DNA of 64,000 nt from Plicaturopsis crispa FD-325 SS-3. Taxonomy: Eukaryota; Basidiomycota; Agaricomycetes; Amylocorticiales; Amylocorticiaceae. Positions within the stretch are counted from its first letter, which is position 1. The number at the start of each line of letters is the position of its first letter. The stretch spans positions 1,566,051 through 1,630,050 of the forward strand of contig KN832556.1 in NCBI GenBank assembly GCA_000827205.1, read 5' to 3'. Under the pieces are notes generated by a model. It saw only the letters and a list, made by a program, of their open reading frames with translations. It searched no databases and had not been told where the DNA came from. Position numbers and translations under genes: made by a program. Below are positions 25,920 through 57,073 of the stretch, one piece after another.

Positions 25920-26333
25920 TGTAGAGGCTCGATTCGCAAGATGGTCCATCCCTCTCTCTTTGATTCACGTTACATATGCATGCCGCTCGCTCGAGGACAC
26001 TTATATCTACCCATTCCTAATGTACTTCTTTCGCGCCCGGTTTACACGGTGTATACTTAACTACGAATGGCCTGCTGAGCCACTGTGCACTCTATAACAC
26101 TTGATACTCCACTCTGACCAGAACCATGACCGTTCATTGCGGATAAGCACGGTGCTCAGTGCTCAACGCACATTGTACGTCGTCTCGAACCCTCTCTCAA
26201 AGTTCCGAACGCATTACTTTGATTACGATGATACCACAAAGTATTACAGCTGCAGTAAGTCGAGAAAGGTACATATTACCCTCGCTAATGTACAACATTG
26301 AACGTGTTCCAATGCGGAAGGAGGAAAGGAAGA
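25920..26333. other. Intergenic; left edge of a tandem duplication
   Basis: Convergent 3' flanks. From about 26272 the sequence is repeated at about 29080, marking the left end of the 2.8-kb duplicated unit. Confidence 0.55.
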
Positions 26334-28034
26334 TCAAAGACTCGAATCGAGCACAGGACGGTCATGCAAACCACTCAGCAAAAATTCCCCTCGAGCATAC
26401 GGTCGACCTCGACCATCCACATAGATGACATACCGGTACCAGTCGATCACGCTCCGCGCACTTGATAACTGCCACTTGAGGTATCTAAGGCAAGTAATCC
26501 AAACAAACTTCAAGTGCACCATCCTCTGCGCCAACATTTCGACGAAGTGGTGAAACGGCGCGAGGTCATCATCTCTCTCTGCAAGCATAACTTGTCCGGT
26601 CGGAGAGAAATATGCGACGGAGATGCGGAGCGTTTGGAGTTCCCGGAGGCCGCACAGTGCGTCCGCCATGGCGTCCTGGTCAATGAGTACATAGTCAATC
26701 ATGTACGGGCACTACATACTTACCAGGGAAGAAAATACACCGTGCTCTTGCTCTTCTCCATATGCCCATTGTCCGTATTCCTTGTCTGCCAGTTCCAGCA
26801 CCGTGAGACGGGGACAGGATCTCGAAATCGCCTGAACCAACTCGGGCGGTGGGACACAGTCCAATGAGAGGACTAACTCTGTGAGTGCCGGCATCTGCGC
26901 GATCCGATGCGCGACACGGAAGGCAGTCGACAAAGAGAGAGGGTTATAACCACGCCATTCTGATCTCAGAATAAACGGCCTTTCGTCCCAAAACGAGTGG
27001 GGGATGGTGTCCTTCCGTGCTAGCACTTTAAGTGACACGAGGCGCTCGGGTAAGTGATCTAGTATGGCATCGAAGGGGTAGGCCACTTGGGAGAGTGTAA
27101 GAGACGTCAGGTGAGGGAGGGCCTCGGGGAAAGGCATCCGTGCCACATCAAGCCCCTCACACTGTGTGCGCGGGAGATAAAGAAAAGGAGGTATATTAGA
27201 CGACGGATTTTGACGACAGACTGAGAAATCCATGTTGAGCGTCCGAAGGCAGGGCATTCTAGCGACGGTAGTGGGTATGTCGGTCTTATCCCATCCTGGC
27301 GCGTGTCCGGTCATGGTCAATGAGTGGAGACGAGGCCAAGAAGTGTCGGCTAAAGTGCACATCCCACAAAAGTCGCCTAAGACTTCGAGTTCCTCGAGCT
27401 GCGGAGAGAGAGAGTGGAGGTACGACCGGACATTATTGACCTCCTTGTTCGGAGAAGGCTCGGGCGGCAAGTATATCGAAAGTGCAAGTCGTCGGAGGTG
27501 GGTAAAGCGGGAAAGTCCGAAGAGACGTGGGCCATCGAATCGGGCACATTCGATGTCTAGATCGTCAAGTGTAGGTACTGTGCTTGCGGCCCGCAGCAGC
27601 ATTTGCGAAGGGCGCCCAGAGAACTGTAATACCAAGCGTCTGAGCGCAGGGAACGTCGATAAGTTGAAGATGTATCCTCTGAGGCTGATGGTCTTTACGG
27701 CTTCCGAGTCCCGCAGATGAAGGGTCCTACTTGGAGGTCATTAATTAGTGAAGTGCATAGATAGAGAGCAAGCAAGCAGTACGGACTGAATGTATTTTCG
27801 TATGCTGCGGGGATGCATTCGCCTTCTTCTGGAGGAAGATTGGCGAAAAATGATCGGAAGACACTGTTCTCTCAAGCGCTTGCATGTGAGTGAGAGCGGT
27901 AAGAGATTACGAACAGGATTCAGTAGCCTTCCATAGTGGAGGTTTGTCCTTTGCGGTGTCAAGTCAAGGATCGCGTCGATGATGAGCATGAGCGTGTCAT
28001 CGTTAGCAGAGACAATCGAGGCTGGCATGGGCAT
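26334..28034 (-). CDS. F-box/LRR-like protein, copy 1
   Basis: Likely SCF ubiquitin-ligase substrate adaptor of the type expanded in agaricomycetes. The start at 28034 gives MPMPASIVSANDDTLMLIID; the F-box continues LLPLSLTCKRLREQCLPIIF. After an intron with donor GTCCGT the main exon (26712-27690) carries leucine-rich repeats: FPALRRLVLQF, LDDLDIECARFDG, LTELVLSLDC, RLTVLELADKEY. The final exon (26334-26702) has LRELQTLRISVAY. About 480 residues. It appears intact. Copy 2, at 29171-30865, is its tandem paralogue. Its substrate cannot be told from sequence. Confidence 0.8.
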
Positions 28035-28453
28035 TTGCAACGCTTGCCCATCGGGTCGACGATGCTAGGTATCAGTCGTACCGGGTTTACAATCAGTTCG
28101 TCGTCGAAGGTTGGTCGAACAAATGAATGCCTGCATGCGTACAGGGCCGTGCATGACTGCCATCGATGCTCTCCACCGTCGCACGTTTTGGAGGTTAGGG
28201 ATCATATGAGTCGGCATGTTGGCACAAAAGTGCAACAGTGCACTAGCCAGTCTTTTGATTGTCTTCGGTATTGTCAACGACAGACATCGCGAGGAGGAAG
28301 GGCTTGGGAACGCGAAGGATGCCTCCGAGGCGAAGTTGTACCGGAGTTGTATCGGAGCTCAAGCGCTCATGATGGACTCAGGGGCTTTCAACTTTCTCTT
28401 CTGCTCATCGTCTGTTTCCCTTTACTCTGTCACTTTTAGCGCAGGTCTGCCCA
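28035..28453. promoter_or_regulatory. Bidirectional promoter, copy 1
   Basis: 419 bp between the divergent starts of F-box copy 1 and the broken plus-strand gene. It is duplicated with few changes at 30866-31275, so both copies of both genes probably start from near-identical promoters. Confidence 0.55.
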
Positions 28454-29029
28454 ATGCCGGAGGGCCCACGGCCTTCAGCTGCTGGGCCATCTAATACCCA
28501 GAAGAGAACTGCGTCGCCAACGACCTCGCAGACATACCAGCCACCGTCGACCGACCGCGCCCGTAACCGCGACCATGTACCCCACTGGGTACCAGCAGAG
28601 TCCGTCATATTACGGCTATCTGCAAGGCTCTTCTACGTGGCAGAGTCAGCCAAACACACCATGGGGAGCACAGGACACTCAGAATGCAAGCGCGTGGCCA
28701 TCTCAGCCATACCAGTACGCGACCGCGCCCGGTCACTCGCACTACCCGCAGTACGTGTACTCAAACCCACAATCGACTTACCCGCTCCAGCAGAAACAAA
28801 CATACGCGTACTACCCACCTTCACAGGCATCGACGATGCCCACCGTTGCGCCCAAGCGCGCACCCCAACTCCTCCGCCGCTTCCATTTCACAAATACTGG
28901 GACAAGGCACTCGCGGCGTTTTTCACGCGCCTGGGGCTGACGCAGACGCTGCGCGGGCTCGAGGCGGATATGCTGGTCATGAACCCGGATTGGGAGCAGG
29001 GGCAGGTGCCGGGCGCGATGGAAGACCTC
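28454..29029 (+). pseudogene. Truncated, frame-disrupted copy of the gene at 31276
   Basis: Matches the first exon of the intact gene at 31276: same ATG context and MPEGP..PSAAGPSNTQK start. The reading frame is shifted in the Tyr/Gln-rich middle (YQQSPSYYGY lies in another frame) and returns for PLPFHKYWDKALAAFF. The sequence follows exon 1 to the donor at 29030 and breaks inside the intron near 29075. The downstream exons, which carry the conserved C-terminal half, are absent because the next duplicated unit begins there. It is most likely a non-functional by-product of the tandem duplication, though still promoter-linked. Confidence 0.8.
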
Positions 29030-29170
29030 GTGTGTACTATACAAGTGCGCGTGTTTGCCATACACCGTACGCTCTGTTTATATATTGGCCTCGCTATCGT
29101 ACAACATTGAATGTCTTCCTATGCGGAAGGAGGAAAAAAGTATCAAGGATTCGAGTCGAACGCACGACGG

Positions 29171-30865
29171 TCAGAACCCATTCAACAAGAATTCCCCTCG
29201 AGCGTACGGCCGACCTCGACTATCCACGTATATCACATACCGATACCAGTGGATCGTGCTCCCCATATGTATGTGCCACCTAAGGTTTCTAAGGCACGTA
29301 ATCCAGACGAACCTCAATTTCATCATCCTCTGCGCCAACATCTCGACGAAGTGCTGGAACGGCGCCATATTGTCGCTGTCCGCAAGCATCATCTGTCCGT
29401 TTGGAAAGACATACGCAACAGAAATGCGAAGCGTTTGAAGTTTCCGAAGGCCGAGTAGTGCATCGGCCATGGCATCCTGGGCAAGGCGTACACAGTCAGT
29501 CATATCCACGCCCTCGATTCTTGACTAGGCATACATACCTGCGAAGAAAATACACCGCGCTCGTCTCCAAATATCATCTGTCCATACTCCCTGTGCACCA
29601 GTTCCAGCACCGTAAGATGTGGACATGATTTTGATATCTCGTGGACCAGTTCGGACGGTGGGGTACGGTCCAATGACAGGACCAGCTCAGTGAGTGCCGG
29701 CATCTGCGAAGTCTGACGCACAATATGGAAGGCGGTCGACAAAGAGACAGGGTTGTGCCCATACCAACGTGGTATCACAGTGGCCGCTCCTTCATCCCAT
29801 GCCGCGTAGGAGAAGGGGTCCTTCCGTGCTAGCACTTTGAGAGTAACGAGGCGCTCGGGCAAGTGGTCTAGGATGGCATCGTAGGGGTAGACCACATTGG
29901 AAAGTGCAAGGGAGGTCAGATGGGGGAGTGCCTCTAAGAAAGACTTTCGTGTCGAATCAAGCCCCTCCCGTTGTGTGCGCGGGGCATACAGAAAAGGAGG
30001 CAGAGGGAACCATGGACTTCGGTAATAGACCGAGAAGTCCATATGAAACGTCCGAAGACAGGGCATTCTGGCCACGGCAGAAGGGAGATCGGTCTGATCC
30101 CATACCAGTACGTGTCCAGTCATAGTCAATGAGCGGAGACGTGGCCAAGAAGTGTCGGCCAAAGTGCGCAGCTCGCAGAAGTCGCCTGAGACTTCGAGTT
30201 CATCAAGCTGTGTAGAGAGGATGTGTAAGTACGACCGTACATTATCGAGCTCCTCTTGTGGTGGGGGCTCGGATGACAGATGCTTTGAAAGTGTCAGTCG
30301 TCGGAGGTAGGTAAAGCGGGAAAATCCGGAGAGACGTGGGCCATCTAGTCGAGCACACTCAATGACCAGATCGTCAAGTGTAGGTGGTGCGCTCGCGGCC
30401 CGCAGCAGCATTTGCGAAGGGCGCCGAGAAAACTCCAATACCAAGCGTCTGAGCGCAGGGAACGTCGATAAGTTGAAGATGTATTTCCTGAGGTTAATGG
30501 TTTTTCCTGCGTCATTGGAATCGAAGTCGTCTGGCATCTTGTCTCGCAGATAAAGGATCCTTGTGAAGGCAGTTCATCAGCGAAGTGTGTTTACATACGA
30601 GGGCAAACAGTACGAACATAACATATTTTCTTATGTTGCGGGGTTGCATCCCTTTTCTCGTAGAGAAGGCTTCACGAAATATGATAGGAAGACACTGGTC
30701 TCTCAAGTGCTTGCATGTGAGTGAGAGCGGTAAGAGATTACGAACAGGATTTGGTAGTCTTCCATAGTAGAGGTTTGTCCTTTGCGGTGCCAAGTCAAGG
30801 ATCGCGTCGATGATGAGCATAAGCGTGTCATCGTTGATTGAGACAATTGAGGTTGGCATAGACAT
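29171..30865 (-). CDS. F-box/LRR-like protein, copy 2
   Basis: Tandem paralogue of the F-box gene at 26334-28034. The start at 30865 gives MSMPTSIVSINDDTLMLIID, with F-box LLPLSLTCKHLRDQCLPIIF. The main exon (29500-30537) has MPDDFDSNDAGKTINLRKYI and then LRRs: FPALRRLVLEF, LDDLVIECARLDG, LTELVLSLDRT, HLTVLELVHREYG. The last exon ends ARGEFLLNGF at 29171. Differences from copy 1 are mostly substitutions clustered in LRR-facing segments (for example PWFPLPPF versus SSNIPPF), as expected when target-binding surfaces diverge. Intact. Confidence 0.8.
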
Positions 30866-31275
30866 TCTAAGTGCTTGCCCATCGGATCGAGAATGCTAGG
30901 TACCAGTCGTCCCGGGCCTTCAATTAGTTCGTCGTCGAACGTTGGTCGAACGAATGCATGCATGCGTACACCGTGCACGACCGTTGCCATCAATGCTCTC
31001 CACCGTCGCACGATTTGGAGGTTAGGGATTAGATGAGTCCGCATGTTAGCACGAAAGTGCGACAGTGCACTAGCTCGTGTTTTGGTTGTCTTTAGTATTG
31101 TCAACGACAGACATCGCGAGGAGGAAGGGAACGCGAAGGATGCCTCCGAGGCGGAGTTGTACCGGAGTTGTATCGGAGCTCAAGCGCTCATGATGGACTC
31201 AGGGGCTTTCAACTTTCTCTTCTGCTCATCGTCCTTTTCCCCTTACTCTTGTCACATTTGGCGCAGGTCTGCCCA
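30866..31275. promoter_or_regulatory. Bidirectional promoter, copy 2
   Basis: 410 bp between F-box copy 2 and the intact plus-strand gene. It is nearly the same as 28035-28453 apart from small indels. Confidence 0.55.
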
Positions 31276-32958
31276 ATGCCAGAAGGCCCACCGCCTTCAG
31301 CTGCTGGTCCATCTAATACCCAGAAAAAAGCTGCGTCGCCAGCGGCCTCACAGACATCCCCACCGCCAACCGCGACCGCGTACCCCGCTGGGTATCAGCA
31401 GAGTCCGTCATATTACGGCTATCCGCAAGGCTCTTCTACGTGGCAGAGTCCACAAAACACACAATGGACAGCTTCGGATACTCATAATGCAAATGCATGG
31501 CCATCTCAGCCATACCAGTACGCGACCGCGCCCGGTCAATCGCACTACCCGCAGTACGCGTACACAAACCCAAGCTCGACTTACCCGCTCCAGCAGCAAC
31601 AACCATACGCGTATTACCCACATGCGCAAGCATCGACGAAGCCCACCGTTGCGCCCAAGGCGCGTACCCCAACACCATCCCCACTTCCGTTCCACAAATA
31701 CTGGGACAAGGCACTCGCGGCGTTTTTCACGCGTCTGGGGCTTACGCAGACGCTGCGCGGGCTCGAGGCGGATATGATAGTCATGAACCCCGATTGGGAG
31801 CAGGGGCAGGTGCCGGGCGCGTTGGAGGACCTCGTGTGTGCTATACAAGTGCGCGTGTCTGCCATACACCGGTCGCTTTGTACTGACGCACTCCTTGAAG
31901 CGGCTTGGAGACGGCGTTAAAGAAGGAACGGACGAGGAACGAACACTGGAGGAGCGAAAACTGGACTATGTCCAGCTCGAAGGTTCCGCCGAGCCAAGGT
32001 CGCACACGTCAGTGAGTTCCCCGCCAACCGTTCCCTCCATATCGAGTACAGCCGACGCGTAACTATACAACATTCCATATACTTACGCCCATGTGATCAC
32101 CTCAGACGACCAAGGAGATATCTAAATTTCTCGCCCGCAACCGCGCGCGGAACGACGCGTCGAACCGTACTGAATTCCTGCACGCGCGTCCAGACGGAAC
32201 GCCCTCGTGCGCGCGCGTGGACGCCAAGACAATCGACCGCGACGTGCAAATGAAGTACGATATCGCGCAGAACGAAGAGGGGCCGCTCAGGCGTACCATG
32301 CGTCCCCCCGGAGCCAGCGAGGAGCGGGCTCCCAAACGGCGGAAAATAGACGGCGATGGGGAGGAGGAGCCGACTACCGAGTCGCATCCTGCATTCGACG
32401 AGCGTTTGCGGAATATTGAGGCACATGTTGCCGTTCGGTACGGTGAGTCTGTTCTGCTTTCGTGTGCGCAGCGTCCTGACGAAGGCGTCCTCTAGTCCCT
32501 GCGCATCCCCGAACGCTTGCTCTGCGCATTAAGTACCTGGAGGATCATATCGTAAGGCTTGAGAAGGAGTACCCGCCATGGGCTGCTCTGCATTTCAACC
32601 AGCCACGCCGTGGTGTGAGTTTTCGCTCTCTGACCTTCCCACTACATTGTCCTAAATACTGACGGTGACTGGTTGACAGTGGCCGCCTCCACCCCGACCA
32701 ACGCCCATCATCGTGCCCTCGCACCTCACATCTACCGTTGCCCCCGACCCTCCAGCTGCCTCGTCAACTACCAACACCGAATCGGGCTCGGGATCTGTGC
32801 CGCCGAAGGCGGGGGCATCGGGCATGGGTAAGCCCAATGCAGGCGGTCGGACGAAGGCGTCCAGTCTGCATCGCGCAGTCATGGAGAAACTGGAGGTGCA
32901 GAAGGCGATGAGCGACTTGCGTAGGGTCGATGATCCCGGTGGACGTCCATCTTCATAG
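31276..32958 (+). CDS. Conserved fungal protein, Tyr/Gln-rich N-terminus and helical C-terminus
   Basis: Starts MPEGPPPSAAGPSNTQKK, then a low-complexity Pro/Ser/Tyr/Gln tract (SPSYYGYPQGSS, HYPQYAYTNPSSTYP), then a folded segment PFHKYWDKALAAFFTRLG and LRGLEADMIVMNPDWE. Exon 1 ends at EDL (31833). Next exons read RLGDGVKEGTDEERTLEERK and, after GTGAGT, TTKEISKFLARNRARND, DAKTIDRDVQMKYDIAQNE, ERLRNIEAHVAVRY and TLALRIKYLEDHIVRLEKE, followed by WAALHFNQPRR. The coiled-coil plus WAALHFNQP ending recalls MBIP-type proteins, but I cannot be sure. Complete, roughly 440 residues. Copy 1 at 28454 is a broken duplicate of exon 1. Confidence 0.7.
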
Positions 32959-37698: not shown

Positions 37699-39494
37699 AC
37701 GACAATCTAATGGTGTGTGTTGTATCATCTAAGGACGTATATATTATCTGTGGCAATATAGAGGGTACATTGACTGGCAAAATGTGTACGAGGTCGAAAC
37801 GCGCTAGCCGTCTACCTCTTCCCGACCACGACGAACGCCTTTCGTAATTTCCGCCGCCTTTCGCCATTTCTCAAAACTCTCTCGCTCGTTTCGACGGCGG
37901 GCTTCCGCGCTGCGCTCATTCGGCGGACGACATCTGCACGCGTCGCTGGATACAACTTCATGTCCCTCGTCAATCCACTCGGCGTCAACTTGCGCAGCGG
38001 CGTCGGATTCTCAGGATGTCGAGCGGCGGCTTGCCCACGGCGCGGCGACTCTGCAAACGCATATGGCCCGACGACGGGCATGCGAAACTCCAATCGGAAA
38101 GAGCCAAGCACGGTACGTCGCGTCCCCTTTGTAGCGAACGAGAAAACTCCGCACGCGCGCGGGCGACGGAGGTCGTGTTTCCACAGTCTCTCGCGCGGAC
38201 TTTCGACGATTCCTCAAGGATGGTACCTGCGCTGTGCCTATTCGGTAGAGACCGTCTGCGCGCGTCGCTGGACGTCGTTCCCTGCACCCGAGTCCTCACT
38301 CCACTCCCGTTTCTCGCGCGGCGGCGATCGCGACTGGGGGCACACGCACGACAACGCGGATCCCCTGACCTGTCCAGGCCGAAGGAGAACATGCACGGGC
38401 AGTGTATGTCGCGTCACCTTGACGTTGGTGCGGTGGGCTTCGCGTGTCAGCGCGTTTTTCGTGATTTTTCGCAATTTTTCAGCATTTCTTGGCAAATACT
38501 CATTCGTTTCTCACAGGGCTTTTCTCGTCGTGCCTATTCGGTGGAGGACAATTGTACTCGTCGCTAGACGTTTACTTCGGGCACCGCGCTGGCCAGCTCG
38601 TCGCGTCGCGTCATTTCTTGCGCGCCGGAATTTTTGCAAGTTTCATTTTTTCATAGGCGGCTTTCAAGCGCACTCGGAGCCGATGCGCAGCATCATTGCG
38701 ACACGATATCCGTTCTCGCTTTGGCATTCGGAGCGAAACTCCTCGCGCGGCGTCGTTTTTTGTGCGCGGCGGTATTTTGGGCGATTTTGCTCGATTTTCT
38801 CTTTTGTTCGGCGGCTCTCAAGCGCACTCGGAGCCGATGCGCAGCATCATTGCGACACGATATCCGTTTTTGCTGTGGCCTTTGGAGCGAAACTCCTTGT
38901 GCGGCGTCGTTTTTTGTGCGCGGCGGCATTTTGGGCGATTTTGCCCGATTTTCTTTTTTGGTCGGAGGTGCTCAAGCGCACAGGTGGTCGACGGGGAACA
39001 TCATTTCGCGATGTTCCCTGCTTTTTCTATGGCATTCGAAGGGGAACTCGTTGAGGGAGCGCGGTTTTTGCGCGGAAACTCATTTTTGCAATGGATTTGC
39101 ACTTTGCGTGCAATTTTTTTCCACCGCTGACGCGTCTTGATTCACCCCTAGATGATGAGGGATGCATACCGCTACCTGCGAGTGGTTGTGCGGCGTGCAG
39201 ACTCCCCTGCCTTCGCCGGCAAAGTGCTTTTTTGTTCGGAAATTGGAGGTTTCGGTCAACAAAGTCACTCGAAGTGACTTGTGGTGCGACGGCGAGCGAA
39301 CGCAGCACCTGCATAGTGCTACGGGCGGTCTTTTCTTTCACTTCGAGATGTCCCTGCGTAGGTTTCCGTGTGCTCAGCTGAATAAAAACCATAGTTTTCT
39401 CCCGTGGTTGTGCGTCCGCTCGACAGTATGAATGCCCGCGAAATGTATGTATTGCATTGTCGGTGGCTATGGCACGGTTTGCTTCTTCATAACG
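37699..39494. repeat. Repeat-rich gene-free block with degenerate roughly 300-bp repeats
   Basis: No recognisable gene. A word of the form ATTCGG(C/T)GGAGAC..CGCGTCGCTGGA occurs in diverged form near 37918, 38240 and 38536, spaced about 320 and 296 bp apart. From 38664 a 154-bp tandem repeat follows. Long plus-strand open frames (for example 37960-39054) cross the repeats, but their predicted proteins are Arg/Phe/Ser-rich and repeat the same nucleotides in different frames, so I do not call them genes. Confidence 0.55.
38664..38980. repeat. 154-bp tandem repeat
   Basis: The unit begins TCAAGCGCACTCGGAGCC at 38664, again at 38818, and a third partial copy begins at 38972 (TCAAGCGCAC). Both spacings are exactly 154 bp. 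Each unit contains CGCAGCATCATTGCGACACG, GGAGCGAAACTCC and GGCGTCGTTTTTTGTGCG. Confidence 0.85.
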
Positions 39495-48706: not shown

Positions 48707-49133
48707 CATTGGTGCCAACTCGCTCTCCTGTCCCGCGCTCTCTCAGTCACCGGATAGTCGTCGTCTTCGGGTCTCGTTCCTCCGCTCATCACTCACTCGA
48801 AAGCTCAGGCATTGATCCCGACTCACAGCCATCGCGCACTTTGGAGATATCGAGATCAGTCAGGAAGAGTCAGTTTTCCATGCTCGAAGCTCTCCCGCCG
48901 CTCTCACCGCTTTCTCACCGCCCTTGGTACTGGGACGCGACTCGAGGCACACGGCCACGTGGACGACGGGCGCCTAATGTGCGCTGATACCCGAGCAGCG
49001 CTGACTCGCATCTCCGATTGGGCTCACTGGCGCGTCCTGCATATATAACGCAGTCCCTTACGGCTCGCCTGCTCCTCAAATCTCCAATCCGCACGCGATC
49101 GCTGTAACGTCCCGTTCGCTGTAACGTCCACGA
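48707..49133. repeat. 427-bp near-identical repeat, left of gap
   Basis: Matches 49235-49662 base for base except for a one-base C-run difference near the right end. It includes the TATATAA promoter element (around 49042) and the first two 17-bp repeats of the DUF6699-like 2 promoter. It lies directly left of the run of N. Confidence 0.92.
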
Positions 49134-49234
49134 NNNNNNNNNNNNNNNNNNNNNNNNNNNNNNNNNNNNNNNNNNNNNNNNNNNNNNNNNNNNNNNNNNN
49201 NNNNNNNNNNNNNNNNNNNNNNNNNNNNNNNNNN
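49134..49234. other. Assembly gap (N run)
   Basis: About 100 unknown bases. The flanks are two copies of the same sequence, so the gap probably sits in or between unresolved repeat copies. Confidence 0.98.
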
Positions 49235-49662
49235 CATTGGTGCCAACTCGCTCTCCTGTCCCGCGCTCTCTCAGTCACCGGATAGTCGTCGTCTTCGGGT
49301 CTCGTTCCTCCGCTCATCACTCACTCGAAAGCTCAGGCATTGATCCCGACTCACAGCCATCGCGCACTTTGGAGATATCGAGATCAGTCAGGAAGAGTCA
49401 GTTTTCCATGCTCGAAGCTCTCCCGCCGCTCTCACCGCTTTCTCACCGCCCTTGGTACTGGGACGCGACTCGAGGCACACGGCCACGTGGACGACGGGCG
49501 CCTAATGTGCGCTGATACCCGAGCAGCGCTGACTCGCATCTCCGATTGGGCTCACTGGCGCGTCCTGCATATATAACGCAGTCCCTTACGGCTCGCCTGC
49601 TCCTCAAATCTCCAATCCGCACGCGATCGCTGTAACGTCCCCGTTCGCTGTAACGTCCACGA
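49235..49662. repeat. 428-bp near-identical repeat, right of gap
   Basis: Second copy of 48707-49133, joined to the DUF6699-like 2 gene, so this is the functional promoter copy. Confidence 0.92.
49570..49576 (+). promoter_or_regulatory. TATA box of DUF6699-like 2
   Basis: TATATAA lies about 112 bp before the ATG at 49688. The same element is present in the left repeat. Confidence 0.6.
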
Positions 49663-50924: not shown

Positions 50925-52299
50925 ATGGTCTCTTTCCAGTAAGCCCTCCCCCCAGTCCCATCAAAACCCACATCTAACCCCTCCATTCTCCTAGATGCCA
51001 TGGTACACCCCCCCCTCCCTTGCCCCCCAAAACCCCAATTAACCCAAGCCCATTTTCATTGTTTTTTTGGTATAGCATGCGGCGACGTCGTGAAGAAACC
51101 GAAGCTGGACCAGCACCGCGCGCGCTGCCACGGCGGGTTCGACTGCATCGACTGCAGCACGACGTTCCATACGCCGGGGGAGTATAAGGGACATACGCAG
51201 TGCATCAGCGAGGCGGAGAAGTATCAGAAGGCGCTGTATAAGGGGCCGAAGATCGTGAGTCCCCCTCCCTCCTTCTCTCCTCCTTTTCTCCTCCCTCCTT
51301 CCTTCTTGTAGCGGATTGTAGGACTATAACTGAATACGCGCAGGCACAACAACAACAAAATCAAAAGACCGTTGCACCCCCTCCGCGGAACAATTACCCG
51401 CCCTTAGCGCCTTCTGCGCCACCGCCTGCGCAGGGTGGTGGAGGGTATGGCCGGCAGGGGTGGGGAAGGCCGCCTCGTGTATCCGCTACGGGCGCGAACG
51501 ACACGCCTCTGGGCACACCGAAAAATACGCCTCTGGGCACACCGAAAAATATGTCTCCGCCCGCGCAGACACCTGCACCTCCTGCGCCTAAGCCTGCACC
51601 TTCTGCACCTGCGCCTGTGGAGCATAAGCCGGTAGAGCAGAAAAAGAAGAAGGAAAAGGAAAAGGCGCGGAAATCTGATGTCGTCGCTACTGTGAGTCCT
51701 TGCACTGTCCCTCTCATAACACGTTATTGACTCAGACACCTGTACAGACGAACGACGAGCCGCGTGCCAAGAAGGCGAAAGTCGAGGTCGAGTCGATATC
51801 CCATCCCGAGTCGACATCGATAGCCCAAGCAGAGGCGTCGTCTCCCCCCTCAAAACCGTCGCCTGAAGACGAGGCGAAGGAGAAGGAGAAGGAGAAGCGG
51901 AGGAAGGAGAAGAGGGAGAAGAGGGAGAGACGGAGGTCGGCTGCGACCACGACTGGAGCAGCGGAGGAGAAGCCAAATACCATCGACGAGAAGCCAAATA
52001 CCATCGACGAGACGCCAAATACCATCGACTCGAAGAAGGAGAAAAAGAGCAAGAGCAAGAAGGCGAAACATTCCGCAGCGGAGCCAGACGCGGCGGCAGA
52101 GGAGGAGGGGAAGAAGTCGAAAAAGCGGAAGCACGCGTCGATATCGGAGGATACGCACGAGAAGAAGGACAAGACGAAGACGAAGACGGTCGAGGCAATG
52201 GTTGTCGATGATGAGGCGGACAGGAAGAGGGAGAAGAAGGCGAAAAAGGCGAAGAAAATAAAGAGCGCAGGGGCTGTCGAGGTCGCTGTTGCAGCATGA
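50925..52299 (+). CDS. LYAR-type nucleolar zinc-finger protein
   Basis: Homologue of LYAR, a nucleolar protein linked to pre-rRNA processing and growth. Exon 1 is only 14 nt (50925-50938) and exon 2 is an 8-nt microexon (50995-51002). With exon 3 they encode MVSFQCHACGDVVKKPKLDQ, then HRARCHGGFDCIDC and FHTPGEYKGHTQCISE, which are the C2HC LYAR fingers. The rest is a Pro-rich linker, including two repeats of TPLGTPKN, and a long Lys/Glu-rich tail with three EKPNTID-type repeats and KKSKSKKAKH, suited to nucleolar retention. The end at 52299 is natural. About 350 residues. Its 3' exon is duplicated at 54577. Confidence 0.88.
50995..51002 (+). other. 8-nt microexon of LYAR
   Basis: ATGCCATG is flanked by ..TCCTAG and GTACAC... 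It supplies the last base of Gln and the codons for Cys-His plus one base. Joining 14 nt + 8 nt + exon 3 gives FQCHACGD; skipping it loses the first zinc-ligand Cys and shifts frame. Confidence 0.8.
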
Positions 52300-52733
52300 T
52301 ACTTAGGTGATCCTTGTTATTCGGTGTGTTTTTGTTTTACTCTGTCTCTGCATCTACCGTGTTATACATATGACTGCGATTTGTGTGGTCTAGGATTTGA
52401 ATGTGCACTTTCTACTACTATCACTGCTGTTGCAACAACAATGTTACTTATCCGTGTTGTGTCGTGACTCTGCTCCTGCATATCGTTATCAGCCTCTCGC
52501 ATTTTCCAAGCGCCTTGTCCGCGCAGTAGTATAAGTTCCAGGAGGGTGTCCTCCGAGTCGGTCAGTGAGACGCTGCGCGCCACCAGCACCCAGAAGGTAC
52601 CTATATATCCCCACGTGGCCTGGGGCATTGTACCAGCATCGATCGCAGAAGCCTCCCTCCCTCCCTGTCTGCTACTCGCCATTTCCCAACTCGCTTTCTC
52701 CCCCTTCCATTTCTTCCCTCCTAACCAACCGCC
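52300..52733 (+). promoter_or_regulatory. LYAR 3' flank and ATG3 promoter, copy A
   Basis: Contains CTATATATCC (52601-52610) and an E-box CACGTG (52612-52617) 122 bp before the ATG of ATG3 copy A. The same block recurs upstream of copies B and C. Confidence 0.6.
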
Positions 52734-53383
52734 ATGCACGCCATACAGGTTCGTCCCCGATCGCACCCATACCCTATCCTAGCTAATTTATTATATTTCG
52801 GGGTGGGTGGGTGCAGCAACAATACTGGGCTGTCCGGGATTACTTGAGCCCCGTACGCACGAACCCGTTCTTGGTCGGTCGGACATCAGCTTACTTATCG
52901 TGTGTGTCCTTTTAGGTCCTCAAGGAGAGCAAGTTCAAGGAACACGGGCGTATCACACCTGGTGCGCACCTCCCACTCCCTGATCGCACCTCGTCTGACA
53001 TAGCGTCTCGCCTCGCGAGCAGAGGAGTTCGTCGCAGCCGGCGACTTTTTGGCGTACAAATTCCCCGTATGGTCCTGGTACGTCCACCCCCCCCTCCCTC
53101 CCACTCCCGTTTAGTCTCACAATAGTATACGACACGACACGCAGGGAGAAAGGCGACGCGTCCAAAGCGCGCGAATACCTGCCCGCCGACAAGCAATACC
53201 TGCTCACCCGCGGCGTGCCCTGCCTGCGCCGCGCGACCTCCCTCGCCTACGAGGACGCGGAGCGGCTCCTCTCCTTCTCCACCTCAACCGACGAGGCGGA
53301 CGAGTGGGTCGAGACGCACGCGACGGCGGGCAACTCGGCGGCGAACCCGGGCGATATCGATGATATACCTGACGTGGATGAGG
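52734..53383 (+). pseudogene. ATG3: ATG3 5' fragment, copy A
   Basis: Carries ATG3 exons with their introns: [58 protein letters not shown] and [17 protein letters not shown]. It runs to [12 protein letters not shown] near 53383, then breaks into a copy of the LYAR-ATG3 spacer. The catalytic half is missing. It retains promoter, start and splice sites, so it may be transcribed, but it cannot encode an active E2. Confidence 0.85.
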
Positions 53384-53712
53384 ACTGCGATTTGTGTGGT
53401 CTAGGATTTAAATGTGCACTTTCTACTACTACTCTTGCTGTTGAAACAAATGTTATCCGTGTTGTGTCGTGACTCAGTTCCTGCCTATCGTTATTATCCC
53501 ATCGCGTTTTCCAAGCGCCTTGTTCGTGTAGCAGTATAAGTTCCAGGAGGGTGTCCTCTGTCTGTGAGACAGTGTGCGTGTGCGCCACCAGCACCCAGAA
53601 GGTACCTATATATCTCCACGTGGCCTGGGGCATTGTACCAGCATCGATCGCAGCCTGCCTGTCTGCTACTCGCCATTTCCCAACTCGCTTTCTTTCCTCC
53701 TAACCAACCGCC
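53384..53712 (+). promoter_or_regulatory. Spacer and ATG3 promoter, copy B
   Basis: Starts at ACTGCGATTTGTGTGG, equivalent to 52373. It keeps the TATATAT element and E-box CACGTG (53617-53622), 96 bp before the ATG of copy B. Confidence 0.6.
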
Positions 53713-54526
53713 ATGCACGCCATACAGGTTCGTTCGTCTCCGATCGCACCAAATACCCTATTGCAGCTAATTTATTATATTTCGGGGGTGTGTGCAGCAA
53801 CAATACTGGGCTGTCCGGGATTACTTGAGCCCCGTACGTACCGTACCGTAGAAAGCGCTCAGACGTTCTTTGGTCGCGGACATCAGCTTATCGTCCTTTT
53901 AGGTTCTGAAGGAGAGCAAGTTCAAGGAACACGGCCGCATCACACCTGGTGCGTACCTCCTACACTCTCATCGCACCTCGTCTGACACCCAGCGCCCCGC
54001 ATCGCAGAGGAGTTCGTCGCAGCAGGCGACTTTTTGGCGTACAAATTCCCCGTATGGTCTTGGTACGTCCACCCCCTCCCTCCCCACTCCCTTGCAGTCT
54101 CACAGTCTCACAATGATATATCGTATGGCACCACGCAGGGAGAAAGGCGACGCGTCCAAAGCGCGCGACTACCTGCCCTCCGACAAGCAATACCTGCTCA
54201 CCCGCGGCGTGCCCTGCCTGCGCCGCGCGACCTCCCTCGCCTACACCGACGCAGACGAGGACGCCGAGCGGCTCCTCTCCTTCTCCACCTCCACCGACGA
54301 GGCGGACGAGTGGGTCGAGACGCACGCCACGGCGAGGGACTCGGCGGCGAACCCGGGCGATATCGATGATATACCTGACGTGGACGATGAGGGCGGGGAT
54401 GATGGGGGCGCGGCGGGGGCGATGGGGGGGATGTCGTTGGGTGGAGGTGGGGGAGGGGGAGAGGGGGCGGGGGTGCCGAAGGTGGGGGAGATCCCTGATA
54501 TGGACGATATTCCGGATATGGAGTGA
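53713..54526 (+). pseudogene. ATG3: ATG3 5' fragment, copy B
   Basis: Same exons as copy A but longer, through the acidic linker ([32 protein letters not shown]). It stops at a TGA created where the sequence jumps into LYAR intron DNA. The catalytic domain is absent. The junction GAGTGAGTAG carries a GTGAGT donor that could splice to the LYAR acceptor at 54576, but that join is out of frame with LYAR. Confidence 0.85.
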
Positions 54527-54576
54527 GTAGTTGCACTTTGCTCAGCATCTGTCCCTACAACGCGTTATTGACTCAG

Positions 54577-55113
54577 ACACCTGTACAGGCATACGATGAG
54601 CCGCGTGCCAAAAAGGCGAAAATCGAGTCGATAGCTCAAGCAGAGGCGTCGTCGATAGCCCATCCCGAGGCGTCGTCTCCCCCCTTAAAACAGTCGCCTG
54701 AAGACGAGGAGAAGGAGAAGCGGAGGAGGGAGAAGAGGGAGAAACGGAGGTCGGCTGCAGCGGAGGAGACTACCACTACCACCACCGCGACTACAACTGA
54801 AGCAGCGGACGAGACGCTCAATACTATCGACGACTCGCACGCGAAGAAGGAGAAAAAGAGCAAGAGCAAGAGCAAGAAGGCGAAACATGCAGACGCAGCT
54901 CCAGATGAGGAGGGGAAGAAGTCGAAAAAACGGAAGCACGAGTCGATATCGGGCGACCGTGACGAGGGCACTACGCACGAGAAGAAGGTGGAGGCGAAGA
55001 AAGACAAGACGAAGACGGATGAAGCGATGGATGATGAGGCGGACAGGAAACGGGAGAAGAAGGCGAAAAAGGCGAAGAAAATAAAAGCTATCGAGGTCGC
55101 TGTTGCTGCATGA
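54577..55113 (+). pseudogene. LYAR 3' exon duplicate
   Basis: Copy of the last LYAR exon: TPVQAYDEPRAKKAKIES, KKEKKSKSKSKKAKHADA, ADRKREKKAKKAKKIK, ending AIEVAVAA with a stop at 55113. It is preceded by the LYAR intron end, but no zinc-finger exons lie upstream; ATG3 copy B does instead. Open throughout, with several small in-frame indels relative to the full gene. Confidence 0.82.
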
Positions 55114-55540
55114 TGCATGGTCGACGGTGATCCTTGTTATTCGGTGTGTTTTTGTTTTACTCTGTCTCTGCATCTACCGTGTTATACATATGACTGCGAT
55201 TTGTGTGGTCTAGGATTTAAATGTGCACTTTCTACTACTACTACCCGCGCTGTTGCAACAAATGTTATCCGTGTTGTGTCGTGGCTCTACTCTCTGATGC
55301 CTATCGTTGTTATCCTCTCGCATTTTCCAGGCGCCTTGTCCGCGCAGTAGTATAGATTCCAGGAGGGTATCCTCGGTCAGTGAGACGGTGTGCGTGCGCG
55401 CCACCCGCACCCAGAAGGTACCTATATATCCCCACGTGGCCTGGGGCATTGTACCAGCATCGATCGCAGAAGCCTCCTTGCCTTGCCTGTCTGCTACTCG
55501 CCATTTCCCAACTCGCTTTCTTTCCTCCTAACCAACCGCC
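55114..55540 (+). promoter_or_regulatory. ATG3 promoter, copy C (functional)
   Basis: Copy of the LYAR-ATG3 spacer. CTATATATCC and E-box CACGTG (55433-55438) lie 108 bp before the ATG of the complete ATG3. Confidence 0.65.
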
Positions 55541-57073
55541 ATGCACGCCATACAGGTTTGTCGCAGATCTATCTCTATGTAGTCCAGCTAATTTATTTCG
55601 GGTGTGCGGCAGCAACAATACTGGGCTGTCCGGGATTACTTGAGCCCCGTACGTACCTCGAAAGCCGTTCTGTGGTCGCAGACATCAGGTTACTTATCGT
55701 GTGTGTCGTTTTAGGTTCTGAAGGAGAGCAAGTTCAAGGAACACGGGCGTATCACACCTGGTGCGCACCTCCTACACTCTGATCGCACCACCCCCCCTTG
55801 CTCGTCTGACCCGCATCGCAGAGGAGTTCGTCGCAGCAGGCGACTTTCTGGCGTACAAATTCCCTGTATGGTCTTGGTACGCACCTTCCCCCTCCCTCCC
55901 CACTCCCATGCAGTCTCACAGTCTCACAATGGTATCGGACATGCAGGGAGAAAGGCGACGCGTCCAAAGCGCGCGACTACCTGCCCACGGACAAGCAATA
56001 CCTGCTCACCCGCGGCGTGCCCTGCCTCCGCCGCGCGACCTCCCTCGCCTACACCGACGCAGACGAGGACGCCGAGCGGCTCCTCTCCTTCTCCACCTCA
56101 ACCGACGAGGCGGACGAGTGGGTCGAGACGCACGCGGGGCGCAAGCCCACGGGGGACTCGGCAGCGAACCCGGGCGATATCGATGATATACCGGACGTTG
56201 ACGATGAGGGCGGGGACGATGGGGGCGCGGCGGGGGCGATGGGGGGGATGTCGTTGGGTGGAGGGGGAGGGGGTGCGGGGGAGGGGGTGCCGAAGGTGGG
56301 GGAGATCCCTGATATGGACGATATTCCGGATATGGAGGAGGACGACTTGGAGGCGGGGGATGATGAGGCTACTGCTGCGCCCAAGGCTGTTCCGACTACT
56401 GCGGGCGTCATTGATGCTAGGTGCGTGTCTGTGCGCGATATCGTTGATAATGGAACTTAGTTGTGCACGGCAGCCAAGTCGAGGTTGCACGGGGGAATCT
56501 ACTCCAAGTGCGGACTTACGATGTGATGATCACCTACGATAAATACTACCAGACACCACGTATCTGGCTGATCGGCTACGACGAGGTTTGTGCCCCTCCC
56601 TACTCCCCATCTGACCCCATCCACTGACCACCCGAGCATTTTAGAACCGCACCCCATTGACGCCACCGCAGATATTCCAAGACATCTCCGCGGACCACGC
56701 GCTCAAAACCGTCACGATCGAAGCCTTCCCGCACTCCGCCTCCCTCCAGGCCGCCTCCGTGCACCCCTGCAAACACGCGAGCGTGATGAAGAAAGTGATC
56801 GAGCGCATGAACGCGGGCGTCGTCGAGGAGCAGCTCGCCCAGCGCAAGTCCCCATCCGCCGCGAAGGACAAGGACGGCAGCGCGCAGAAGAAGAAGTGGC
56901 CGTTCGGGCGCAAGGGCGGGAAGGACGATGGTAAGAGCGCCGCGCCTACGTCCCCGGGAGGGGAGGAAGAGGAGGTGGAGGGCATGCGCGTGGACTTTTA
57001 TCTCGTCGTGTTCTTGAAGTTCATCGCGAGCATCGTGCCGACGATCGAGGTGGATTCGACGACGTCGTTCTGA
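55541..57073 (+). CDS. ATG3: Autophagy E2-like enzyme Atg3
   Basis: E2-like enzyme that transfers Atg8 from its thioester to phosphatidylethanolamine during autophagosome formation. Exons read [69 protein letters not shown] and [19 protein letters not shown], then an acidic/Gly-rich flexible region. The E2 core follows: [58 protein letters not shown] and [18 protein letters not shown] with the catalytic Cys of HPCKH. The end reads [26 protein letters not shown] at 57073. A Lys/Gly-rich insert ([17 protein letters not shown]) precedes the last helix. It is the only complete copy of three. Confidence 0.95.

Follow-up and report, generated by a model that had tools for sequence, protein, structure and literature searches.

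We analyzed a window of 64,000 nucleotides from the fungus Plicaturopsis crispa FD-325 SS-3 (contig KN832556.1, 2.46 Mb, in a genome of 33.2 Mb and 49 contigs), in which part of ATG3, the gene for the autophagy enzyme Atg3, is repeated next to a gene of the LYAR type. Self-BLAST and alignment revealed three head-to-tail copies at 52372-57073, each consisting of a spacer and ATG3 exons 1 to 5. From left to right, the array contains a LYAR gene (LYAR1), two ATG3 copies truncated on their 3' side (ATG3-A and ATG3-B, hereafter A and B), a LYAR copy truncated on its 5' side (LYAR2) and a third ATG3 (ATG3-C, or C); the outer LYAR and the outer ATG3 are both whole. In the self-BLAST, A and B are 83% identical and B and C 86%, and the stretch formed by LYAR1 and A is 80% identical to that formed by LYAR2 and C across 1775 columns. 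An initial annotation of this DNA had described three ATG3 5' halves in tandem, each with a start codon and introns, of which only the last carries the catalytic half, and our self-BLAST, gene models and matches to the Pfam profile PF03987 bear this out. The truncated LYAR2 between B and C was absent from that description, which names LYAR in its title.

All the genes of the array lie on the forward strand. LYAR1 (50925-52299) is a whole gene of five exons (50925-50938, 50995-51002, 51076-51254, 51344-51691 and 51736-52299) separated by GT..AG introns, and its product of 370 amino acids matches zf-LYAR (PF08790) with an E-value of 1.8e-13. The LYAR1 3' untranslated region (UTR) and the ATG3-A spacer occupy 52300-52733. 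They are followed by exons 1 to 5 of ATG3-A (52734-53472, 159 amino acids), in which the ATG3 sequence is cut at around 53382, after 130 codons, and continues into 29 unrelated codons up to a TGA at 53472. A second copy of the spacer (53391-53712) precedes exons 1 to 5 of ATG3-B (53713-54526, 179 amino acids), where the ATG3 sequence is cut at around 54522, after 178 codons, and a TGA lies right at the junction, at 54526. LYAR2 (54523-55113), identified by sequence match and gene model, comprises intron 4 and the last exon (54577-55113) with an open frame, and lacks the first exons and the start codon of LYAR. Its 3' UTR and the third spacer (55114-55540) lead into ATG3-C (55541-57073), a whole gene of seven exons (55541-55555, 55613-55648, 55715-55760, 55822-55876, 55947-56420, 56474-56585 and 56645-57073) encoding 388 amino acids. 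Each of the three ATG3 copies has an ATG, an open frame and, between exons 1 to 5, four introns with GT..AG ends. The three spacers, which are putative promoters, all have in common a CACGTG and a TATATAT located 96-132 bases 5' of the start codon. A scan of 52300-52740 for bacterial-type promoters and terminators, a method unsuited to a fungus, gave no match.

Regarding the encoded proteins, ATG3-C matches PF03987 over profile positions 1-192 of 193 (residues 34-383, E-value 2.5e-57) and can be aligned, over two or three stretches, with Atg3 chains of solved structure, its active-site segment (SVHPC) falling on the SVHPCRH of the 3VX8 and 8FKM chains. It can thus be classed as Atg3, the E2-like enzyme that acts in the lipidation of Atg8 (PF03987; PDB 2DYT and 3VX8), whereas the matches of A and B cover just the first part, with profile positions 1-74 of 193 (E-value 2.1e-12) and 1-57 of 193 (E-value 9.5e-13), respectively. 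Unlike Atg3, both end ahead of the second half with the active-site cysteine; this catalytic half is present only in ATG3-C, and neither A nor B can be classed as an Atg3 enzyme. In yeast Atg3, according to PMC6689050, an N-terminal membrane helix (1-18) and a flexible region (85-159) precede the active-site Cys234, which lies in the second half, and the E123IR (129-142) binds Atg7, Atg12-Atg5 and the Atg3 core; domain roles of Atg3 are also given in PMC12005411. Using phmmer, residues 126-130 of B (IDDIP, also found in A) align to yeast residues 131-135, the alignment being weak there. ATG3-C aligns with the 3VX8 chain, again weakly, at DDIPDMEE, and B keeps DDIPDME. A and B retain the N-terminal segment, together with acidic-hydrophobic motifs similar to the yeast E123IR. 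They could thus have a partner-binding motif, which makes the decoy role proposed in the initial annotation possible.

We then read the two junctions by placing the parental sequences side by side, and in both cases unrelated sequences are joined with about 1 bp in common. Junction 1 (53377-53390, with self-BLAST matches overlapping at 53383-53389) links ATG3 exon 5 to the LYAR 3' UTR, and at junction 2 (54518-54528) exon 5 of ATG3 runs into LYAR intron 4 at the GTGAGT donor of that intron. Because the joined sequences have so little in common, non-homologous tandem duplication is their likely origin, rather than crossing-over between repeats. As the four 5' introns are kept in both A and B, the array is a DNA-level tandem partial duplication. 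A retroposed (processed) copy is ruled out, since 8/8 introns in A and B are present with GT..AG ends. From these retained introns the initial annotation had deduced a DNA-level origin by unequal exchange; the DNA-level origin holds, and unequal exchange is at odds with junctions between unrelated sequences.

Two events suffice for the observed layout, and the truncated LYAR2 is the key to its geometry. The ancestral state would be a head-to-tail LYAR-ATG3 gene pair, struck by two nested tandem partial duplications. The first, of about 1.8 kb and running from LYAR intron 4 to ATG3 exon 5, would have produced a whole LYAR, a truncated ATG3, a truncated LYAR and a whole ATG3. The second, of about 1.0 kb and running from the LYAR 3' UTR to ATG3 exon 5 within the product of the first, would have added the extra spacer and ATG3-A. 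We infer both events and their order from the arrangement of the copies. Tandem duplications that cover only part of a gene and leave truncated fragments behind are a known class of structural variation, with head-to-tail copies, kept introns, junctions inside genes and whole outer genes, as found here. The ATG3 array differs from them in having two nested events on one gene pair, frames that are kept and protein-level constraint on the fragments; the array itself is a known kind of structure, and the constraint is its interesting part. No report of truncated ATG3 copies was found in the literature searched, and a viral contig collection yielded no relative, the genome of P. crispa itself being the only fungal collection searched.

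One could argue that the array is an assembly artefact, for instance one in which the two haplotypes of a dikaryon were placed one after the other, and such errors do occur here. A run of 101 N (49134-49234), outside the array and the only one in the window, can be interpreted as a gap in the assembly, where two overlapping contig ends were left unmerged. It is flanked by a 428-bp repeat (48707-49662) that is 99.8% alike, with one difference, 1.7 kb upstream of LYAR, and this repeat has the look of an unmerged contig overlap and hence of a falsely duplicated segment preceding the next gene. The array, in contrast, contains 0 N and its junctions show no overlap; its copies differ by 8-10% in spacers and by 17-26% in introns, and the ATG3 5' half is present in three distinct versions, more than the two haplotypes of a dikaryon could supply. 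In searches of the P. crispa genome with ATG3 DNA, ATG3 protein and LYAR-to-ATG3 DNA, the matches listed (3, 8 and 3, respectively) were all at the array locus, with no second locus among the candidates scored; these searches score the best candidates alone, which leaves room for further copies elsewhere. We regard an artefact as very unlikely, and agree with the initial annotation that the copies, too different and too many, are not simply an assembly duplicate. Most likely, the locus is real and represents a well-preserved case of nested tandem duplication of partial genes, its 5' fragments being intact.

We checked A and B for frameshifts, stops and broken splice sites besides their truncation and found none, and the two copies do not have the features of decayed pseudogenes. 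The nonsynonymous (dN) and synonymous (dS) divergences, calculated by the Nei-Gojobori method, were 0.018 and 0.129 for A/B and 0.020 and 0.191 for A/C (130 codons each), and 0.015 and 0.162 for B/C (over a longer common stretch of 177 codons). By three-branch arithmetic, dN/dS is about 0.15 on the A branch, 0.13 on the B branch and 0.08 on the C branch; these values are rough, as they mix two lengths. In a codon alignment of the 130 shared codons, the substitutions unique to each copy were 7 synonymous and 3 nonsynonymous in A, 4 and 1 in B, and 8 and 2 in C. Taking A and B together, 11/15 are synonymous, against a neutral expectation of 74% nonsynonymous (P = 0.004 for A, 0.017 for B and 1.4e-4 for both). 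Exons and introns also differ in their unique changes, with 8/383 versus 27/227 in A (P = 9e-7), 5/383 versus 10/227 in B (P = 0.027) and 9/383 versus 32/227 in C; these counts come from the nucleotide alignment, and those for exons are slightly unlike the codon-alignment ones. The exon:intron ratio of A showed no difference from that of C (P = 1.0) or that of B (P = 0.49). The exon indels in the ATG3 codon alignment measure 12, 9 and 3 nucleotides, and an 8-nucleotide gap in the pairwise A/B alignment reflects the different end cut points of the two copies. Among the pairwise intron gaps, those that are not multiples of 3 were 6/10 for A/B, 4/5 for A/C and 8/9 for B/C. Finally, in a neutral simulation of 5000 runs for each copy and setting, A remained without stop and frameshift in 0 and B in 0.26%; at the mildest settings (synonymous rates and half the indel rate), the frame stayed open in 0.44% of the runs for A and in 3.5% for B. 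According to these results, the branches of A and B show constraint.

Gene conversion restricted to exons was rejected as the main cause of the low exon divergence, given that synonymous divergence is 0.13-0.19 and that exons of 15-55 nucleotides alternate with introns differing by 17-26%. In a mosaic test of copy B the informative sites cluster, with 83 same neighbours versus 49 expected and 0/5000 shuffles as high; several of the clusters lie in gapped introns with doubtful alignment, and we draw nothing from them. The spacers diverge less (8-10%) than the synonymous sites, and the 3' UTRs of LYAR1 and LYAR2 share 92 identical bases (52307-52398 and 55127-55218). Selection on the UTR or promoter may account for this similarity, and so may a conversion tract.

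A second tandem duplication on the forward strand of the window (26270-31881) offers a comparison. Its units (26270-29077 and 29079-31881) have a spacing of about 2.8 kb and are 81% alike. As in the ATG3 array, the units are adjacent and a 5' gene fragment with upstream sequence precedes the second copy: the fragment, P1 (28454-29077), derives from a plus-strand gene and lies upstream of a second copy starting at 31276, for which we do not assume a whole gene. Unlike A and B, P1 carries two frameshifting indels, a 19-nucleotide insertion and a 1-nucleotide deletion, which together restore the frame downstream. Its differences amount to 37 nonsynonymous, 29 synonymous and one stop-making in 603 sites, a nonsynonymous share above those of ATG3 B/C (P = 0.009) and A/C (P = 0.044); the same contrast by codon position gave P = 0.094 and 0.043, respectively. 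The contrast is modest and, as the genes differ in nature, is a guide and not a proof. Given the open frames and mostly synonymous changes of A and B, and the two frameshifting indels of the comparison fragment, it is probable that A and B were translated during a large part of their existence as separate copies. Separately, the 2.8-kb unit of this second duplication contains a minus-strand open frame resembling LRR families, below the Pfam cut-offs.

What the constraint means depends on when the copies were cut. If the fragments were born truncated, as in the two-event history, their separate changes post-date truncation and selection acted on the fragment proteins; if divergence took place between whole genes or distant alleles and the cuts are recent, the constraint was inherited. 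We tentatively favor the former, with a confidence that falls a little short of even. Fragments A and B, arisen by nested duplications and with spacer, start, introns and frame kept, would still be made as short proteins, comprising the N-terminal segment, the first half of the E2 fold and the E123IR-like acidic motif, and would be kept by selection. The simplest role we can infer for them would be a slight modulation of the binding of Atg7 or Atg12-Atg5. A more specific version seems unlikely: two catalysis-dead N-terminal Atg3 proteins, expressed from their own copies of the ATG3 promoter and born truncated, would be held by selection because they compete for Atg7 or Atg12-Atg5 and thereby adjust Atg8 lipidation in concert with the active enzyme. 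Against a decoy role, A and B are missing the active-site cysteine, half of the E2 fold and everything after the flexible region. Several observations weigh against selection on fragments born truncated. Half a fold may not fold alone or may be unstable. The counts are small, with 15 substitutions on A and B, and one nonsynonymous change in A (codon 137) touches the junction. The nested order is also affected: A/B is the closest pair at synonymous sites and in introns, which fits that order, but not at nonsynonymous sites (B/C 0.015, A/B 0.018, A/C 0.020) nor in the spacer (B/C 8.2%, A/C 9.2%, A/B 10.2%), and for this reason we consider the order likely, not certain. In addition, LYAR2 has an intact frame without the LYAR start, and 8/8 of its indels are multiples of 3.

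This last observation leans toward inherited constraint, under which A and B would be inert leftovers that have yet to decay, although codon repeats in LYAR2 favor multiple-of-3 indels anyway. The copies could descend from a tandem repeat of the complete LYAR-ATG3 pair into which two deletions later cut, or from very different alleles joined by non-homologous exchange. That A is as constrained as the whole gene C by exon:intron ratio would be natural if A was once whole, and an allele diversity of 0.13-0.20 is found in one wood fungus, Schizophyllum commune (PMC9187340). Inherited constraint would, however, need four events (two full duplications plus two deletions with similar positions) or else an exceptionally diverse species, and the only hint of diversity here, weak in itself, is the one difference in 428 at the overlapping contig ends. 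LYAR2 gives it no clear support either. In columns picked by DNA identity, LYAR1 and LYAR2 differ by 15 nonsynonymous to 12 synonymous substitutions (9 to 7 at a stricter cut), and in these columns the nonsynonymous share resembles that of the frameshifted comparison fragment. The dN/dS of LYAR2 was 0.34 (0.23-0.53) over all columns and 0.21 (95% interval 0.11-0.40) over columns picked by protein identity, the latter being biased by the choice of columns. Taken together, inherited constraint is a plausible account, only slightly less probable than selection on the fragments. Local direct duplications of at least 1 kb are common here, with four in 264 kb including the ATG3 array (20 stretches and the window, partly N), and B stays open at the mildest simulation settings in a few of the runs, so that A and B might be ordinary neutral debris, open by luck; the substitution tests, the simulation as a whole and the two frameshifting indels of the comparison fragment make this improbable. 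Even less probable is a fusion gene in which the N-terminal Atg3 piece of B is spliced to the Lys-rich tail of LYAR2, which would explain both frames. LYAR2 has kept its native acceptor, and splicing from 54482, a weak donor, could join the two pieces in frame through the acceptor at 54577 (95-nucleotide intron) or that at 54589 (107-nucleotide intron). Yet this donor is exon sequence in ATG3-C, and the phase of the strong donor, GTGAGT at 54523, fits neither acceptor; the acceptor at 54546, which is in phase with it, would leave a 23-nucleotide intron. A donor at 54447 yields two more in-frame pairs (188 and 197 nucleotides), which are no stronger, and a fusion would leave A unexplained.

If the fragments are made and selected, duplication at a single locus would have equipped a core autophagy E2 with built-in competitors under shared regulation, and gene debris would have turned into a regulator by a simple path. 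If the constraint was inherited, the locus would be a clean example that open frames in gene fragments alone do not prove function.

As for the other local repeats, two further direct duplications were observed in the 200 kb upstream, starting at position 665 of stretch L015 and at position 1207 of stretch L018. Their units are of about 1.3-1.5 kb, and the copies lie 447 and 774 bases apart and are 69% and 80% alike, respectively. Within the window, we also observed an overlapping short tandem repeat at 38597-39074, with a spacing of 142-154 nucleotides and copies that are 78-90% alike.

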